Origin: Verrucomicrobiales bacterium
Lineage (GTDB): Bacteria; Verrucomicrobiota; Verrucomicrobiia; Limisphaerales; UBA9464
Assembly: GCA_003445095.1 (NCBI GenBank)
Contig: DLVS01000786.1
Location: 1-15,483, forward strand
Length of the DNA stretch: 15,483 bases
Direction: 5' to 3'
Shown: one piece after another, positions 8,485 through 15,483 of the stretch
Layout of the letters: each line of letters starts with the position of its first letter
Position numbering within the stretch: the first letter of the stretch is position 1
The notes under the pieces: generated by a model
Seen by the model: only the letters and a program-made list of their open reading frames with translations
What the model was told of the DNA's origin: nothing
The model's database searches: none
Translations under genes and position numbers: made by a program

Positions 8485-8578
8485 GTTTCCGAAGCGGCCG
8501 CGGGGACACTGCCGTTGATCCTCCCGCCAAAGAAAGCAGTTGGCATTTGCCGCGATCCGCTCGAAATCAAGCGCGCCG

Positions 8579-10243
8579 ATGCTCACCACGCTGCGGATTA
8601 AGAATCTGGCCCTCGTGGCGGACCTCACTCTCGAACTGGCCCCGGGTCTCAACGTCATCACCGGCGAAACCGGCGCCGGAAAGTCGGTTATTCTCGGCGC
8701 GCTCAATCTCGTGCTGGGTCAGCGTGCCGATCGTACGTTGATCCGAACCGGAGCGGACGCCTGCACCGTGGAGGCATCGTTTGATACTTCGCGGTTGCAG
8801 ATGTCCGTCGCCCCATTCCTGGCGGAGCACGGGCTGGAGGCTAGCGACGATGGCCAGCTCGTCATCAAGCGGACCTTCACCGCCGCGGGAACCAACCGAC
8901 AATTCATCAACGGTTCGGCCACTCAACTGGGAACCCTCGCCGCATTAGGTGATGGACTCGTCGATTTGCACGGGCCTCACGAACATCAGTCCCTGCTGCA
9001 GTCCGCGCGGCAACTCGCGATCTTGGACGCCTTTGGAGGGCTGGCCGAGTGCCGCGCCTCAGTCACCGGTCCGCTGGCTCGGCGACGCGACATGGAGCGC
9101 GCCCGCGCCGAACTCACGATCGATGAGCGAAGCTTTGCCCAACAGCTCGATTTGTTGCGTTTTCAAGTGCGAGAGATTACCGAGGCTCGCCTACGAGAAG
9201 GCGAAGACGCGGAAATCGAAAAGGAACACCGTCGGGCCACCCATGCGGCTCGTCTGCAAGAACTGGCGCAGACGTCCCTCGGATTGCTCACGGACCGAGA
9301 CGATGCCGTCCTTGCTCAGTTAGGCGCGGTGGGCCGACTCCTTCAAGACATGCAGCGATTGGATGCGGGCGCGGCGGCGTTCGTCGGCATCCAGGAGCAG
9401 GCGATGGCGACCTTGCGCGAGTTGCAGGCAGACCTCTCGCGTTACGCGGATCAGATGGAACTTGATCCCTCAACGGTGCAGCGCCTTGAAGAACGACTCA
9501 ACCTGTTGCAATCGCTCAAACGCAAATATGGGCATTCATTGCCGGAAGTATTGGCTTTCGGCGCGGAGGCCCAATCTCGACTCGCGACGCTCGAAGGTCG
9601 TGACGCCGAATTGATCCGGCTCAATCAAGAGCTCGCCGAGTTGGACCGGACCGTCCGCTCGGCGGGTGAAGTGTTGTCAGCGGAACGGCGAAAGCTCATT
9701 CCGAAGCTTTCGAAAGCAGTGGCGCGTGAGCTGGCAGCGTTGGGGTTTCGCCAGAGCAGCTTCCTAGTAACGCTGATTCGAGAGGAGACGCCATCAGCCA
9801 CCGGATTCGATACCTGCGAATTCCAGTTCGCGCCGAATCCGGGTGAACCCGCGCGACCGTTGCGAGCCATCGCTTCCAGTGGGGAACTTGCGCGAGTCAT
9901 GCTGGCATTGAAGACGGTGCTGGCGGCCGAAGACGAAGTGCCGGTGCTCGTGTTCGACGAAGTGGATGCGAATGTCGGAGGCGAAACGGCGACGGCGGTG
10001 GGCGCCAAGCTGCGCCAAATCGCCCGACAACATCAGGTCGTCTGCATCACGCACTTGGCGCCGGTGGCGGCGGCGGGTGACGCGCATTTTGTGGTGACCA
10101 AGGAGGTGGTGGGCGGTCGGACTGAGTCGCACGTGGAACGCCTCGATCGCGGTGAACGCATTGAGGAACTTGCCCGCATGTTGGGTGGCGTCAGTGCCGT
10201 CTCCCGCCAGCACGCCGAGGAACTGCTGGGCACTAAAGCGTAA
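8579..10243 (+). CDS. recN: DNA repair protein RecN
   Basis: RecN is an SMC-like ATPase that binds and tethers DNA ends during recombinational double-strand break repair. From ATG 8579 the protein is 554 residues, matching the E. coli length (553). It opens MLTTLRIKNLALVADLTLEL, the usual RecN start. The Walker A motif is GETGAGKS (29-36). The FINGSATQLGTLAALGDGLVDLHGPHEHQ segment (~104-132) is characteristic of the family. Heptad-rich coiled coil runs through ~150-350 with a central hinge. The ABC signature is SSGELARVMLALK (from 433), and Walker B is VLVFDEVDANVGG with Asp460/Glu461. The H-loop is ITHLAPVAAA. The ATG has only a poor ribosome binding site; an upstream in-frame TTG at 8540 would add 13 atypical residues, so I rejected it. 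No LexA-type box was recognised upstream. Confidence 0.96.
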   Translation: MLTTLRIKNLALVADLTLELAPGLNVITGETGAGKSVILGALNLVLGQRADRTLIRTGADACTVEASFDTSRLQMSVAPFLAEHGLEASDDGQLVIKRTFTAAGTNRQFINGSATQLGTLAALGDGLVDLHGPHEHQSLLQSARQLAILDAFGGLAECRASVTGPLARRRDMERARAELTIDERSFAQQLDLLRFQVREITEARLREGEDAEIEKEHRRATHAARLQELAQTSLGLLTDRDDAVLAQLGAVGRLLQDMQRLDAGAAAFVGIQEQAMATLRELQADLSRYADQMELDPSTVQRLEERLNLLQSLKRKYGHSLPEVLAFGAEAQSRLATLEGRDAELIRLNQELAELDRTVRSAGEVLSAERRKLIPKLSKAVARELAALGFRQSSFLVTLIREETPSATGFDTCEFQFAPNPGEPARPLRAIASSGELARVMLALKTVLAAEDEVPVLVFDEVDANVGGETATAVGAKLRQIARQHQVVCITHLAPVAAAGDAHFVVTKEVVGGRTESHVERLDRGERIEELARMLGGVSAVSRQHAEELLGTKA

Positions 10244-10338: not shown

Positions 10339-10378
10339 CCTACTGCCTTCTGCTCTACGAGCCAAAGCTTGCAGTAGG
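10339..10378. repeat. Inverted repeat between recN and the enolase-like gene
   Basis: CCTACTGC (10339-10346) and GCAGTAGG (10371-10378) form a perfect 8-bp inverted repeat with a 24-base loop. It straddles the stop codon of the minus-strand enolase-superfamily gene, in the convergent interval after recN. No U-tract follows on either strand, so it could be a weak terminator or an mRNA 3'-end structure. The rest of the 111-base interval (10244-10354) shows only the short pair CGTTG/CAACG (10257-10261 and 10270-10274). Confidence 0.35.
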
Positions 10379-11800
10379 GTCGGGCAATGTTCGAACGATC
10401 TCCCCCTCTCGATAACCGAAGCCAGGACCGTGGATGCTCTGCAACTCGACGCAACCCGAGACCCGCCGGTAGAGCCCAGGATGAACTTTCGCCTCGGGTG
10501 CGCTGGCGTCGGGATAGAACTGCATGGCGTTCGTCTCGACCCCCATGATTGTGGGCACGTGCGCCGCGAGCAGGCAGTGCGGTATTTGGGCGAGCATAGG
10601 ATTGGTCAGGTCTTGGACCATTAGCGCCAGGCCGTGCGCTTGCGCCCAGCACGCCGAGAGCAAGGCGCCCGTCTGTGTTTTGCAGGTTTTGAGCGCGACT
10701 CCCGTCCAGCCGAGTTCGCGACCGCGACGAATCAGCTTCCAATCATGGGCGCTTTCATCGAGGAAGAGTGGTTTCCGCGCGCTGACCGTGTGGACGTCGA
10801 TGGGGAATTCCTCGAGCTCATAGGGGAACGGTTGCTCGACGTAGAGCAACATGTCGCACAGCCGCGGATGCTCGACCCGCAATCGGTCCAGAATTTCGCA
10901 GACGTAGGCCGGTTCGTGAACTGTGCAGTTGAAGTCGGCCGTGAGCCATTCGACTTCATGAGCCGAAGCCAGTCGGCCAACCTTGATGAGACGTTGGTAA
11001 TCCCAATCGGCGTCATTTCCTCGCAACTTCACTTTGAGGCATTTCAAACCGTCGCGCTGGATCCAATCGGCGAGCAGCACTGGATAGCCATCCTTGGGTT
11101 CGTCCCCACGCAGGTCGGATTCTTCAAGCGGATCGAGTCCGCCGACCAAATGCCAAGCCCGAAGTCGGTCGAGCCGTTGGGGCCGGAGGAAGTCACGTGG
11201 AAAGCGGCCCGCGAACGAAACGGCAACGTCTTCGGCGGGGCTGAGGAACGCACTCAAGTCGCGACTGAGGAAGTCGGGACCGTACGTCGAGTAGCTGGGA
11301 ACTCCGTGCAGATTTCCAAAGGCATCGTGGAGAGCGAGGTCGAAGGCAGAGCAGCACACCAAGGCAGCGAGCCACGGGAGCCGAGTTGAGAGTTGAGAGT
11401 TGTTGAGTCGACTGGCGTTGAAGTCTTCCACCAAGCGCGGAAGTAGGAGTTCCGTGAAGTCATAGCCCAACTCCAGAGGGTGTCCCCAATCGCCGAAGTT
11501 CGCCCACGCCTGAGTAAGGAGCTCGCAGAAGAGTTTCAGGGCGCTGTGGCGTGGCGCATACGGCGCAGAACTGGGCCAAACCCACTGAACGCTCAGCGGA
11601 GTTTCGCCCCAGCCGTACGCCGCACGCCCGTCGCGACTAACCACGCGCAAGCGGACGCGAGCGCAGGTGACGGAGGTCAGTGCCTCGGTGCCAAACTTCA
11701 GCGGCACGCGGGTCTGTACCGGCAGGAACCATAAGGTCGCACTGGCAACATGAACGTCGGTGCTGCGACCTTGTCCTGAAATAGTAAAGCGCGAGTCCAT
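10355..11800 (-). CDS. Enolase-superfamily (muconate lactonizing/mandelate racemase-like) enzyme
   Basis: This 481-residue protein carries the full catalytic set of the muconate-lactonizing subgroup of the enolase superfamily, which abstracts a proton alpha to a carboxylate and stabilises the enolate with Mg2+. The residues are K256-x-K258 (CLKVKLR), D289-F-N291 (TADFN), E322 (VEQPF), D348-E349 (FLDES) and K371 (VALKTCKTQTG). Spacing between the metal ligands fits the (beta/alpha)8 barrel. Family members are usually 350-400 residues; the extra length lies before the barrel, at about 70-245, with a Trp/Pro-rich N-terminal part. Substrate is unknown: dipeptide epimerase, muconate cycloisomerase-like and sugar-acid dehydratase activities cannot be told apart here. 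The gene starts 44 bases after gyrA on the same strand and is probably co-transcribed. GGAGG (11811-11815) lies 10 bases before ATG; it can pair with a nearby CTCC in a weak 4-bp stem. Confidence 0.82.
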   Translation of the reverse strand: MDSRFTISGQGRSTDVHVASATLWFLPVQTRVPLKFGTEALTSVTCARVRLRVVSRDGRAAYGWGETPLSVQWVWPSSAPYAPRHSALKLFCELLTQAWANFGDWGHPLELGYDFTELLLPRLVEDFNASRLNNSQLSTRLPWLAALVCCSAFDLALHDAFGNLHGVPSYSTYGPDFLSRDLSAFLSPAEDVAVSFAGRFPRDFLRPQRLDRLRAWHLVGGLDPLEESDLRGDEPKDGYPVLLADWIQRDGLKCLKVKLRGNDADWDYQRLIKVGRLASAHEVEWLTADFNCTVHEPAYVCEILDRLRVEHPRLCDMLLYVEQPFPYELEEFPIDVHTVSARKPLFLDESAHDWKLIRRGRELGWTGVALKTCKTQTGALLSACWAQAHGLALMVQDLTNPMLAQIPHCLLAAHVPTIMGVETNAMQFYPDASAPEAKVHPGLYRRVSGCVELQSIHGPGFGYREGEIVRTLPDPTASFGS

Positions 11801-11844: not shown

Positions 11845-14484
11845 TTATGCAGGCGGTGGCGCGGGTTCGGTCGACTCCGACGTTTCGTCGTCGTCCTTTT
11901 CGGAAATGACCGGTGCGATCGCCTGGAGACGGTCGTTCGCTTCCAGGTTGATGAGCTTAACTCCTTGGGTGTTGCGGCCGGCCTCGCGAATTCCTTGGAC
12001 CGGAATTCGTACCATCTGACCACCGCCAGTAATGAGCATGAGTTCGTCGGCATCGTTCACGGTCAGCGCGCCGACGATGTTCCCTGTCTTCTCACCGGTT
12101 TTCATCGTGATGACTCCTTTACCGCCCCGCGATTGGAGCCGGTATTCCTCGAAGTCGGTGCGCTTGCCGATGCCGTTTTCGCCCGCGACGAGCAAGGTGG
12201 CTCCCGGCACCACGAGCGCGCAGGCCACGACAGCATCGGTTTTCTCCAATTCGATTCCCCGGACGCCGGTGGCCGCGCGGCCCATGGAGCGGACTTGATC
12301 TTCCTGGAAGCGAATGCTCATGCCTTCCTTGGTAATGAGCACTACCTCGTTCTGGCCGGTCGTGAGTTTCACGTCCACCAGATCGTCGCCTTGATCGAGC
12401 GTGATCGCGATGATTCCTCCCTTTCGGACATTTTGGAAATCGCTGAGAGCCGTTCGTTTGATCGTACCCAGGCGAGTAACAAAGAACAATTCATGGGTCT
12501 GGGTCCATGTTAGATCTTCTTTGTTCGGGCCATACTTGGCTTCGACGCGAACGAGCGTCTGGATTTTCTCCTCGTTACGGAGTTCGAGCAGATTAGCAAT
12601 GGACCGCCCCTTCGAAGCGCGCCCCATATCCGGAATCTCGTGAACCCGCTCGACGTACACACGGCCGAGATTCGTAAAGAACATCAAGTAGTCGTGCGTG
12701 GAGCAGGTAAAGAGACGTTCGATGAAGTCAGCGTCCTCCGGTTTTTCGGATTCGCGGGTGGCCATGCCAATGACGCCTTTGCCGCCCCGCCGCTGGGCGC
12801 GGTAGCTCGACACATTGGTGCGCTTAATGAGGCCATTGTGCGTGAGCGTGACAATCACTCCCTCGTTCGCGATCAGGTCCTCGATTGCCATCTCGCCTTC
12901 GTCGGGGACGATTTCCGTCCGCCGCGGGTTACCGTGCTTGTCCTTAATCTCGGTGAGTTCCTTCTTGATGATCGCGAGGACGCGCGACTCTTTGGCCAGA
13001 ATATCGAGCAGGTCGCGGATGCGCTCCATCAGCTCACGGTATTCGCCTTCGATCTTGTCAATCTCGAGCCCGGTTAGCCGATAAAGCTGTAGGTCCAGGA
13101 TGGAATTAACCTGGCGTTCGGTAAGCGCGTAGCGGCCCCTGGTCAGGCGATCCTCACTCCGCACGATAATGTTCCAACGTTCAACCTGGGCGCGGGTCCA
13201 TTCGAAGGCGAGCAACTTGACCTTGGCCTCGTCGCGATTGCGAGAGCTGCGGATGATACGGATAAACTCGTCAACGTTGCGGAGCGCGACCAGGTATCCT
13301 TCGAGGATTTCGGCACGTTCCTCAGCCTGCCGGAGATCGAATCGGGTCCGCCGTAAGATGACCTCTCGGCGGTGCTCGATGTAGGCCGAGATGAGTTCAC
13401 GAAGCGCGAGTGTCTTGGGCTTTCCGTGGTCAATCGCCAGCGCATTGACGCTGAAGGAGACTTCGAGCTGAGTGTGTTTGTAGAGGTTGTTGATGACGAC
13501 CTTCGGGATGGCGTCGCGCTTGAGTTCCACCACCAGTCGACTGTTCTCGTCCGACTCATTTCGAACGCCGCTGATATCGGTGACGACTTTATTGTTCACC
13601 AGATCAGCAATCTGCTGTTCCAGCGCGGCCCGATTGACGTTGAAAGGAATCTCCGTGATGACGAGCTGCTCGCGATTGCCTTTGAGCTGCTCAATGCCGA
13701 CTTTACCTCGGAGCTTCACGCTGCCGCGGCCGGTTTCGAAGTAGTTCTTGATTCCTTCAATACCGCAAAGGATGCCGCCCGTGGGAAAATCCGGCCCCTT
13801 CATAAACTTCATCAACTGCGCCGTGGTGATGTTTGGGTTGTCGATCTGAGCGCAGACCGCGTCCACAACTTCGGCGAGGTTGTGAGGCGCCATGTTAGTT
13901 GCCATGCCGACCGCGATGCCGGTGCCTCCGTTGACAATGAGATTGGGAAAGGCGGCCGGGAAGACCGTGGGTTCGGTGAGGCGCTCATCGTAATTCGGAA
14001 CGAAGTCCACCGTGTCCCTATCCATGTCGGTCATCAGTGCCGCGCCGAGGTGCGTGAGCCGCGCCTCGGTGTACCGCATCGCCGCGGGAGGATCGTCCTC
14101 AATGGAGCCGAAGTTGCCTTTACCATCCACGAGGCGTTCCCGCATGGCCCAGGGTTGGGCCATGTGGACCAGTGTCGGGTAGATGACGGCTTCGCCGTGT
14201 GGGTGGTAATTGCCGGAGGTATCGCCGCAAATCTTGGCGCACTTCATGTGCTTGCGGCCGGGGATCAGCGAGAGCTGCTCCATCGCGAAGAGGATGCGGC
14301 GCTGCGAGGGCTTGAGGCCGTCACGTACGTCGGGTAACGCGCGAGAGATGATCACCGACATGGAGTAGTCGAGGAAGGAGGCCTTGATCTCTTCCGCGAC
14401 GTTAATCTTGGTGATCTTTTCGCCGATGGCGTAGGCGCCGCCGGACGGAGCCGGGGAGGACGGGGGATGGGAATCTTCGGGCAT
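11845..14484 (-). CDS. gyrA: DNA gyrase subunit A
   Basis: GyrA is the DNA-cleaving and wrapping subunit of the A2B2 gyrase, which introduces negative supercoils. The 879-residue protein has [20 protein letters not shown] (46-65), the catalytic tyrosine Tyr138 in [10 protein letters not shown], and [16 protein letters not shown] (187-201). The GyrA-box QRRGGKG lies at ~563-569, which separates gyrase from ParC/topo IV. The C-terminal domain shows the blade motifs of the DNA-wrapping pinwheel. The tail ([15 protein letters not shown]) is acidic, as in E. coli. The quinolone-determining helix reads [10 protein letters not shown] (94-103), placing Ala99 and Pro103 where E. coli has Ser83 and Asp87. 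ATG 14484 is the only reasonable start. It lies 3 bases after the toxin stop, in the same frame, with no Shine-Dalgarno (CCTTTTTTAGTCC precedes it). Translation by coupling to the toxin gene is therefore inferred. The enolase-like gene follows. Confidence 0.97.
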
Positions 14485-14487
14485 GGA

Positions 14488-14931
14488 CTAAAAAAGGTCG
14501 TTCGGCAAACGGTCGGGGAACAGCGGGATGCTCAAATCGTGGGCGCCGGCACGAAGGCGCCGGTCGGTCGCGGCTAGCGGGAATTCATGGGCGAGGTCAC
14601 AGGTAGCGACGTGGATCGCGTCCAGAGTGCGCAGCAGAATTCTAGGATGGCAGCGGGCGATCGTATGGGTCGTTCGGTCGAGCACCCGGGAATCGAGGGA
14701 TTCCAAGATGATGGCCCCGTCTTCCAACCATGATTGGAATCGGTCCCAAGCACGCTGGCGGTCCGCGGGTTGAAGCTGGCCCGCCCGCTCTTTGCTGGCC
14801 AAGGCAGCAAAGACTTCGGCGCGGGCCAACTCCGATGAATGCAGCGGATGCCCTCGAAGCTCGCTTTCGAAAAAGGCAGAGTCCGCCTCAACTGTGACTA
14901 GTTTCACGAAGATCGCCGAGTCGCAGTACAT
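14488..14931 (-). CDS. VapC-like PIN-domain toxin (RNase)
   Basis: This 147-residue protein has a complete PIN domain, the Mg2+-dependent endoribonuclease fold of VapC toxins. Its four acidic residues are in place: Asp4 (MYCDSAIFVKL), Glu39 (SELARAEVFAAL), Asp104 (RTLDAIHVA) and Asp123 (ATDRRLRAGA). VapC toxins typically cleave tRNA or rRNA when free of antitoxin; the target here is unknown. I prefer ATG 14931, 5 bases after the antitoxin stop, because VapC proteins normally begin just before this D-S motif. A TTG at 14943 would overlap the antitoxin by 7 bases and add MVGV. Weak GAGG and TAGG lie upstream of the ATG. The last codons read CTT TTT TAG, giving a T6 run at the stop, and gyrA begins 3 bases later in the same frame. 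With all catalytic residues present, the toxin is likely functional. Confidence 0.9.
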   Translation of the reverse strand: MYCDSAIFVKLVTVEADSAFFESELRGHPLHSSELARAEVFAALASKERAGQLQPADRQRAWDRFQSWLEDGAIILESLDSRVLDRTTHTIARCHPRILLRTLDAIHVATCDLAHEFPLAATDRRLRAGAHDLSIPLFPDRLPNDLF

Positions 14932-14936
14932 CACGC

Positions 14937-15275
14937 CTACCAACCTCGCGCATCGCGATCTTCGCTGATGAGATCAGTGGAGTCTGGCCCGCCCGCCCAT
15001 GGGGGCATCTTCGCGAGATGGGCGGCGCTACCTGAGAAAACCTTCCGAGGCTTTGCGGTCTCCACCGGCACAAGCCGCGCCTTCGGTCGCCCATCCGAGG
15101 TGATCAGCACCTCCCGCCCCGCCGCTACCTTTTCGAGCAGGGCGGAGAGTGTGGCCTTGGCAATGCGTACCGACACGACCTCACCGAGCCCGGACCAGGT
15201 CACCGCTGCCGAATCCCGCAGGACAGCGGGCTCGGTCTCCGCGGAAAGGTACGTAACAGGGCGCTTCCGTTTCAT
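14937..15275 (-). CDS. Phd/YefM-type antitoxin (VapB partner)
   Basis: This 112-residue protein is the cognate antitoxin of the PIN toxin. The Phd/YefM-like DNA-binding and dimerisation core is VSVRIAKATLSALLEKVAAG (35-54) followed by REVLITSDGRPKARLVPVE (55-73). The C-terminal part, ending PDSTDLISEDRDARGW, is the variable toxin-wrapping segment; such DLI-x-x-DR-x-x-x-GW tails are common in antitoxins paired with PIN toxins. Residues 1-33 precede the usual fold start and are atypical. A GTG at 15176 with GAGG close upstream would give a 79-residue protein of normal length. ATG 15275 is given because it follows directly on the promoter, so its mRNA would be nearly leaderless. The gene starts 40 bases after gyrB, and the toxin follows after 5 bases. 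Autorepression through the upstream palindrome is expected for this family. Confidence 0.85.
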   Translation of the reverse strand: MKRKRPVTYLSAETEPAVLRDSAAVTWSGLGEVVSVRIAKATLSALLEKVAAGREVLITSDGRPKARLVPVETAKPRKVFSGSAAHLAKMPPWAGGPDSTDLISEDRDARGW

Positions 15276-15281
15276 GTCTTA

Positions 15282-15309
15282 AATGTAGTCACGCGTGACC
15301 ACATCGCAA
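15282..15309 (-). promoter_or_regulatory. Putative TA promoter with palindromic operator
   Basis: On the minus strand TTGCGA (15304-15309) and TACATT (15282-15287) are 16 bases apart, a fair -35/-10 pair. The spacer and -10 are covered by a 22-bp palindrome at 15283-15304. It has a perfect 12-bp core GTCACGCGTGAC and flanking ATGT/ACAT arms, with 10 of 11 base pairs matched. An operator overlapping the promoter is the usual autoregulatory site of type II TA modules. Predicted transcription would begin about 7 bases downstream of the -10, essentially at the antitoxin ATG 15275. Confidence 0.65.
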
Positions 15310-15315
15310 GTCTTT

Positions 15316-15483
15316 TCAAATGTCGAGATTCCGTACGTTCAACGCATTGTCCTCAATGAATTGCCGGCGCGGCTCGACTTCATCACCCATCAGGCGCGTG
15401 AACATTTCTTCAGCCTCCACGGCATCCGTGAGATCGATGCGCAACAGTTTTCGCCGCTTAGGATCCATCGTGGTGTCAAACAA
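15316..15483 (-). CDS. gyrB: DNA gyrase subunit B, C-terminal end (partial)
   Basis: The last 55 residues and the TGA stop of GyrB are present; the rest lies beyond the window edge. The readable sequence begins [20 protein letters not shown] and includes [20 protein letters not shown], ending [11 protein letters not shown]. This matches the conserved GyrB TOPRIM/tail end (E. coli-like LMG-D-x-VEPRR-x-FIE-x-NAL-x-x-x-NLDI). GyrB supplies the ATPase and TOPRIM parts of gyrase. Its presence upstream of gyrA in the same direction shows the ordinary gyrB-gyrA gene pair, here split by a toxin-antitoxin module. Confidence 0.95.

Follow-up and report, generated by a model that had tools for sequence, protein, structure and literature searches.

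A toxin–antitoxin module between gyrB and gyrA

The window, by which we mean the whole 15,483-nt stretch of DNA that was analysed, carries on its minus strand, in this order, the 3′ end of gyrB, a Phd/YefM-type antitoxin gene, a PIN-domain (VapC-type) toxin gene and gyrA (Table 1). The three intergenic gaps measure 40, 5 and 3 nt, and the Pfam and TIGR matches together with the coordinates confirm this arrangement, which an earlier note had read from the sequence. The antitoxin gene precedes the toxin gene, the gap between them is short and a palindromic operator lies at the promoter, the layout of a type II toxin–antitoxin (TA) operon. Beyond gyrA, an enolase-superfamily gene (MR_MLE_C; 10355–11800, minus strand) follows on the same strand, and recN (8540–10243, plus strand) lies on the strand opposite to gyrA.

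Table 1. Features of the gyrB–gyrA region in the window
Feature	Position	Strand	Evidence
gyrB 3′ end (last 55 codons), truncated at the window edge	15316..15483	-	PF00986 (E 2.5e-16); TIGR01059, partial
−35-like hexamer TTGCGA of the apparent antitoxin promoter	15304..15309	-	Sequence reading and alignment with relatives
Palindromic operator, 20 bp, 19/20 to the family consensus	15284..15303	-	Within a 22-bp palindrome, 15283–15304
−10-like hexamer TACATT, antitoxin ATG 6 nt on	15282..15287	-	Sequence reading and alignment with relatives
Phd/YefM-type antitoxin, 112 aa	14937..15275	-	PF02604 and TIGR01552 above cut-offs; homologues; alignment
PIN-domain (VapC-type) toxin, 147 aa, ATG at 14931	14488..14931	-	PF01850; alignment; structure model; PDB matches
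gyrA, 879 aa, start 3 nt past the toxin stop	11845..14484	-	TIGR01063 (1086.7 bits); PRK05560

The antitoxin scored above both family cut-offs (PF02604, 34.8 versus 29.8 bits; TIGR01552, 34.1 versus 20.8 bits) and differs from Phd/YefM antitoxins in having about 30 extra N-terminal residues ahead of the matched stretch. Phd/YefM antitoxins have Doc or YoeB as partners, whereas the partner here is a PIN protein.

For the toxin, PF01850 gave 36.4 bits against a cut-off of 23.6, a score obtained on the longer ORF that begins at 14943. This TTG start, taken from the ORF list, was set aside in favour of the ATG at 14931, because the resulting 147 aa match the length of the nearest homologues. PIN/VapC proteins stood at the top of both the Foldseek and the VIA lists for the structure model (pLDDT 95.2), so that a family score above cut-off and a PIN fold agree on PIN/VapC membership. 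Searching the PDB by toxin sequence returned no chain at E 0.01, and identity to the PIN toxins PAE0151 and VapC20 was 12–21%. The earlier note had placed all four acidic residues in the toxin, and D4, E39, D104 and D123 are indeed present. CcdB and ParE, to which the toxin was also compared, are gyrase poisons; this identity was rejected for the window toxin, for which PIN was the only Pfam family above cut-off and PIN/VapC led the fold lists. The proposal that the protein is a predicted RNase and not a CcdB/ParE-type poison was thus upheld, and its link to gyrase is one of location only.

A conserved operator and apparent promoter behind gyrB

The 22-bp palindrome falls within the 40-nt gap between gyrB and the antitoxin gene and is enclosed by a σ70-like promoter, laid out in the window as TTGCGA, 16 nt, TACATT, 6 nt and ATG. 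This promoter is clearest in locus L040 (TTGACA, 17 nt, TACATT); the window version is weaker and falls under the threshold of a generic σ70 scan. The same scan found no promoter in 14300–15483, and hence none for gyrA within the toxin gene, the case that the earlier note named as refuting; but it also missed the conserved promoter in front of the antitoxin gene.

The operator consensus in the gyrBA loci (those with the module between gyrB and gyrA) was TGTAGTCACGCGTGACTACA. Of 58 loci, 55 matched it with at least 14/20, at a median of 16 nt past the gyrB stop codon, and 41 with at least 16/20; shuffled sequences reached at most 15/20, so that scores of 14–15 are attainable by shuffles. Three loci were far outliers in the gyrB–operator distance, with another gene in between. 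Of the 41 loci with at least 16/20, 40 have their first in-frame ATG or GTG 5–7 nt past the −10 hexamer, and L170 has it 18 nt past. We infer from this sequence layout that the antitoxin–toxin mRNA may be both autoregulated and leaderless.

One terminator-like site was found in 14300–15483, inside the toxin gene, with 1.0 expected by chance, and the stretch from toxin to gyrA in the window contained no terminator above chance expectation. Given the lack of a conspicuous terminator there, gyrA should be reached both by read-through from gyrB and by transcription from the TA promoter.

In L035, L039, L101 and L104, half of an operator (TGTAGTCAC..) spans the gyrB stop codon. It is situated upstream of the promoter region and may be the trace of an earlier cassette. 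The record containing L035 is named Blastochloris (Pseudomonadota), yet its GyrA groups with verrucomicrobial GyrA; the contig is probably mis-binned.

Occurrence of the module across genomes

A GyrA scan of genome contigs yielded 80 loci, in six of which homologues of both antitoxin and toxin separate gyrB from gyrA. Two overlapping genome samples were searched at a match threshold of E 1e-25 with an alignment of 16 toxins (that of the window, six from gyrBA loci and nine homologues without an assigned location), a query that may favour relatives of the gyrBA copies, and at most 13 candidates were scored per genome. In the class sample (class of G001, 286 genomes), 28 genomes had a toxin match, one apiece, with 20 copies at gyrBA (19 with both neighbours visible, the contig of one locus ending before gyrA) and 8 elsewhere. 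The order sample (order of G093, 293 genomes) gave matches in 71 genomes: 46 had a gyrBA copy (45 with both neighbours visible) and 25 had copies only elsewhere. The G319 contig begins inside the toxin, and G420 and G437 each have one toxin copy at gyrBA and one elsewhere. Here, "elsewhere" denotes that no gyrA or gyrB match occurred in the fetched stretch, mostly 1.5–2 kb per side and in some cases limited by the contig.

These searches resulted in 59 gyrBA loci including the window, the other 58 each from a separate genome; contig ends left one locus without gyrA and one without gyrB. The module was co-directional with gyrB in 58/58 loci and with gyrA in 58/58, and at least 26 gaps of relatives were free of a TA pair. 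From the toxin stop to the gyrA start the median distance was 13 nt, with 3–41 nt in 54/58 loci and either 145 nt or additional ORFs in the remaining four. Comparison of gyrB–gyrA intervals across relatives, an approach put forward in the earlier note, thus recovered the same gene order in 58 further loci, with other cassettes sharing the gap; an assembly error or chance is excluded by these separate genomes. The note had also considered a TA module within gyrBA unusual. A seamless type II module is indeed there, but it is frequent in this lineage (46/293 order genomes) and the site is recurrent.

The catalytic residues were retained in nearly all gyrBA toxins (D4 and E39 in 59/60 each, D104 in 60/60 and D123 in 58/60). 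Nine close toxin pairs, picked for likeness and all used, showed dN of ~0.03–0.14, dS of ~0.3–2.7 and dN/dS of ~0.03–0.15; an antitoxin dN/dS value for L094/L142 was meaningless owing to frame or alignment and was dropped. The conserved residues and low dN/dS indicate that the toxin, a predicted RNase, is under purifying selection and stays functional.

The module was not matched in phage and plasmid collections at E 1e-5, and viral contigs gave one distant match (32% identity) and 0 occurrences of the exact promoter–operator pattern. A phage- or plasmid-borne module was rejected, as close relatives did not appear in these collections. PADLOC-DB contained no match for toxin or antitoxin; absence from that library rules nothing out.

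Toxin phylogeny

In an 89-row toxin tree, built without five weak matches (L136, L138, L195, L196 and L197), a supported branch separated 18 non-gyrBA copies from 60 gyrBA and 11 other copies. The tree required 8 changes of location, compared to an average of 24.8 with shuffled labels. The 11 non-gyrBA copies were nested among the gyrBA ones, and a single gyrBA clade was rejected in a 35-row tree (p-AU 0.005). Exits from gyrBA or several entries into it are possible; the base of the gyrBA clade lacks resolution. The simplest reading of these sequences would be an old entry into gyrBA, followed by exits and by exchange between lineages. The window toxin grouped with those of L092 and L096, and the window GyrA with those of L092, L096 and L102, the last of which has a toxin of another subfamily. 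Since both window proteins group with L092 and L096, no recent swap is evident for the window.

Copies outside gyrBA had mixed homes, and their operator was either the same as in the gyrBA loci or of a GGCC type. A sister clade with the GGCC-type operator (L183, L184, L187 and L191) seems to occupy a genomic home of its own: on reading the sequence, its copies adjoin what seem to be shared ABC-transporter genes, and in L187 and L191 a protease-like gene, again apparently shared, precedes the copy.

The cassette and its gyrase flanks are largely uncoupled, as judged from sequence

Identities were correlated over 51 loci in which 320 GyrA and 260 GyrB residues could be compared, a set that leaves out, for their short flanks, the window, L035, L039, L140, L159 and L179. 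GyrA and GyrB changed together (rho 0.88), whereas the values were 0.21 for GyrA–toxin, 0.18 for GyrB–toxin, 0.37 for GyrA versus the last 80 residues of the antitoxin and 0.42 for toxin–antitoxin (n=51 in each case). The GyrA–toxin value was reached by 4/1000 permutations, and by 29/2000 in another run; because it beats nearly all permutations, part of the correlation would be vertical. Nearest neighbours agreed for 21 of the 51 loci between GyrA and GyrB, for 9 between GyrA and toxin, for 12 between GyrB and toxin and for 8 between toxin and antitoxin. This last count implies either that the module is not swapped cleanly as one unit (mosaics) or that the measure is noisy.

Individual pairs of loci pointed the same way. 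L145 and L171 share 99.7% of the compared residues in GyrA and 98.8% in GyrB versus 45% in the toxin; for L106 and L107 the values are 99.1%, 97.7% and 51%. Six pairs were laid out in nucleotides, and in the five discordant ones (L145/L171, L106/L107, L093/L141, L139/L155 and L143/L164) divergence ran mainly from the operator or antitoxin start to the toxin end or gyrA start, with likeness in L106/L107 resuming over the final hundred bases of the toxin gene. The sixth, L147/L152, is one of the close pairs that have the toxin in common too (94%) and is alike over the whole layout. Two further states of the locus were a tandem of two modules of different subfamilies in the gyrB–gyrA gap of G351 and a decayed copy in L122, in which the antitoxin is shortened and a fragment is left of the toxin. 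Taken together, these comparisons indicate that cassette and flanks are largely uncoupled; fast divergence could mimic part of the apparent exchange.

Other contents of the gyrB–gyrA gap

Among the gyrB–gyrA pairs listed (86, one contig each, read by hand from a listing that favours relatives of the window), 62 had short gaps, 14 held Phd/PIN modules and 10 had long gaps without Phd/PIN. These ten comprised two kinase pairs, one decayed module, three PDDEXK_3-type ORFs, two unrecognised contents, one ParE-type toxin with a partner and one DUF2283 protein with a partner; Pfam covered one of the three PDDEXK_3-type ORFs plus one from L020. A ParE-type toxin is present in L126.

The kinase-like protein (192 aa) and its partner (95–102 aa) lie between gyrB and gyrA in L119, L121 and L007, in the last case behind a Phd/PIN module, and the L119 copy matched AAA_33 and Zeta_toxin. 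A kinase search of the same 293 genomes gave matches at E 1e-25 in 62. Among the best 30 matches, to which the location count applies (34 weaker ones lie outside it), the top 8 (E 4e-53 or better) were without exception at gyrBA, and each of the remaining 22 lay elsewhere. A partner was found in seven of the eight gyrBA kinase loci, each time with a 4-nt overlap between the kinase stop and the partner start. The two genes are a putative TA pair. In L198 and L205, the kinase start overlaps the gyrB stop (TGATG), which leaves no promoter space behind gyrB; a promoter inside gyrB is possible for these two cassettes. For the kinase, the anti-phage library gave one match, to AriAB (17 residues, E 0.0026), which was disregarded.

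Other ORFs were seen at the same place. A similar sulfotransferase ORF occupies the gap in L018, L021, L023 and L031 (two of them named Udaeobacter), and Pfam identified that of L021 as Stf0. L130 combines a TA module with a sulfotransferase-like ORF and a GxxExxY-like fragment. A 351-aa ORF between gyrB and the TA module (L129:842–1897) presumably resembles a D12-class DNA adenine methylase. Judged by eye, gaps without TA showed no clear insertion scar or target duplication.

Discussion

Our reading, which we consider probable, is that the gyrB–gyrA gap of Verrucomicrobiae houses a type II TA module and serves as a TA socket kept mainly by addiction and exchange: TA cassettes lodge there, get exchanged and decay. 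The sequences show that the module keeps its place and orientation, that the toxin is under purifying selection and that other alleles have taken over the coding part between a constant gyrB, operator and gyrA.

In type II TA systems, the antitoxin together with the toxin represses at a palindrome, and loss of the antitoxin frees the RNase. At this locus, antitoxin and toxin would occupy the palindrome of their own promoter, just past the gyrB stop, and thereby repress it, with the mRNA predicted to start at or beside the antitoxin start codon. When the unstable antitoxin falls, the toxin would cleave RNA. Read-through from gyrB and transcripts from the TA promoter would both run on into gyrA. 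Other alleles may replace the coding part by homologous recombination through gyrB/operator and gyrA, and loss would be slowed, as deletions would have to spare both gyrA and the antitoxin. The earlier suggestion that insertion made the module hard to lose is favoured by this analysis, with the qualification that cassettes are swapped and one copy has decayed.

A possible yet rather unlikely alternative is that gyrB–gyrA of Verrucomicrobiae is a polymorphic cassette locus like immunity loci, with flanks and operator kept and with Phd/PIN alleles and kinase/ParE pairs traded under selection for difference. Each cassette would tap the expression of the gyrase operon, and shut-off of gyrB, for example by phage, would starve the antitoxin.

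Functional coupling to gyrase supply, the other suggestion of the earlier note, is conceivable because the module comes with an apparent promoter of its own, some 800 bases ahead of gyrA. Under stress, the autorepressed promoter would contribute extra gyrA transcription, and GyrA would rise as the antitoxin decays; alternatively, the toxin would trim gyrBA mRNA. This explanation fits the operator and promoter-like sequence 5′ of gyrA in 55/58 loci, the 3–41-nt toxin–gyrA spacing in 54/58, the co-direction of every locus and purifying selection on the toxin. However, 62 of the 86 listed gyrB–gyrA pairs have a short gap without a cassette, unrelated cassettes take the same place, and the kinase cassette of L198 and L205 starts in the gyrB stop codon with no promoter space behind gyrB. 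Moreover, the review PMC7167474 judges mazEF in relA–mazG and yafNO in dinB–yafP to be without a functional operon link. We therefore regard coupling as improbable. Since many relatives' gaps are empty and unrelated cassettes do as well, addiction and easy replacement are preferred over gyrase control; in our judgement, what maintains the site is addiction together with replacement through homologous flanks.

Decidedly improbable is a gap that tolerates any co-directional insert and contains TA genes merely because these are common. Non-TA inserts do exist (PDDEXK_3 ORFs of GxxExxY-like type, the Stf0 sulfotransferase and a methylase-like ORF), but the toxin clade is concentrated at gyrBA, with 60/71 copies on one supported side of the tree, and the best 30 kinase matches divide into 8 at gyrBA at the top and 22 elsewhere. 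Finally, one ancient insertion inherited with gyrBA, with many losses and with toxin diversity arising by fast evolution, would fit the fixed position and operator spacing, the single tree side holding 60 gyrBA toxins and 11 others, the match of the window's group between both trees (L102 excepted) and the weak yet non-zero GyrA–toxin correlation, but is made very unlikely by the gap between that correlation and the GyrA–GyrB one (rho 0.21 versus 0.88), by different supported toxin subfamilies between near-identical flanks and by the tandem of two subfamilies in G351.

With TA cassettes that lodge and are exchanged as the preferred reading, the 59 gyrBA loci with measured flanks combine at one gap a constant position with exchange of alleles, a tandem arrangement, decay of one copy and occupation by unrelated cassettes. 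Different pairs in the same gap of related species constitute a natural test of how TA modules move and are kept, a question that strain comparison makes testable. They also place a possible stress or defence module in the expression path of an essential enzyme.

Comparison with known systems

Among the titles and abstracts listed in searches of openly licensed literature, none reports a TA pair lodged between the two gyrase genes; a passage of PMC7561548 about a long gyrB–gyrA gap names transporters and cysL. According to the available text of PMC7167474, E. coli and relatives carry mazEF in relA–mazG, yafNO in dinB–yafP and ccd in folA–apaH, and the relA–mazG gap can hold either mazEF or parDE. 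As far as that text describes them, these sites resemble gyrB–gyrA in having a TA pair between two core genes with a TA-free gap in relatives and, at relA–mazG, different TA families at one gap. The present locus differs from the E. coli sites described there in its operon, the essential gyrBA, and in its occurrence in Verrucomicrobiae; in addition, subgroups of two unrelated cassette families are tied to the gyrB–gyrA gap, and alleles differ between near-identical flanks. We believe that both the parts and the kind of placement are known, and that the form they take at gyrB–gyrA is new and unusually clear.
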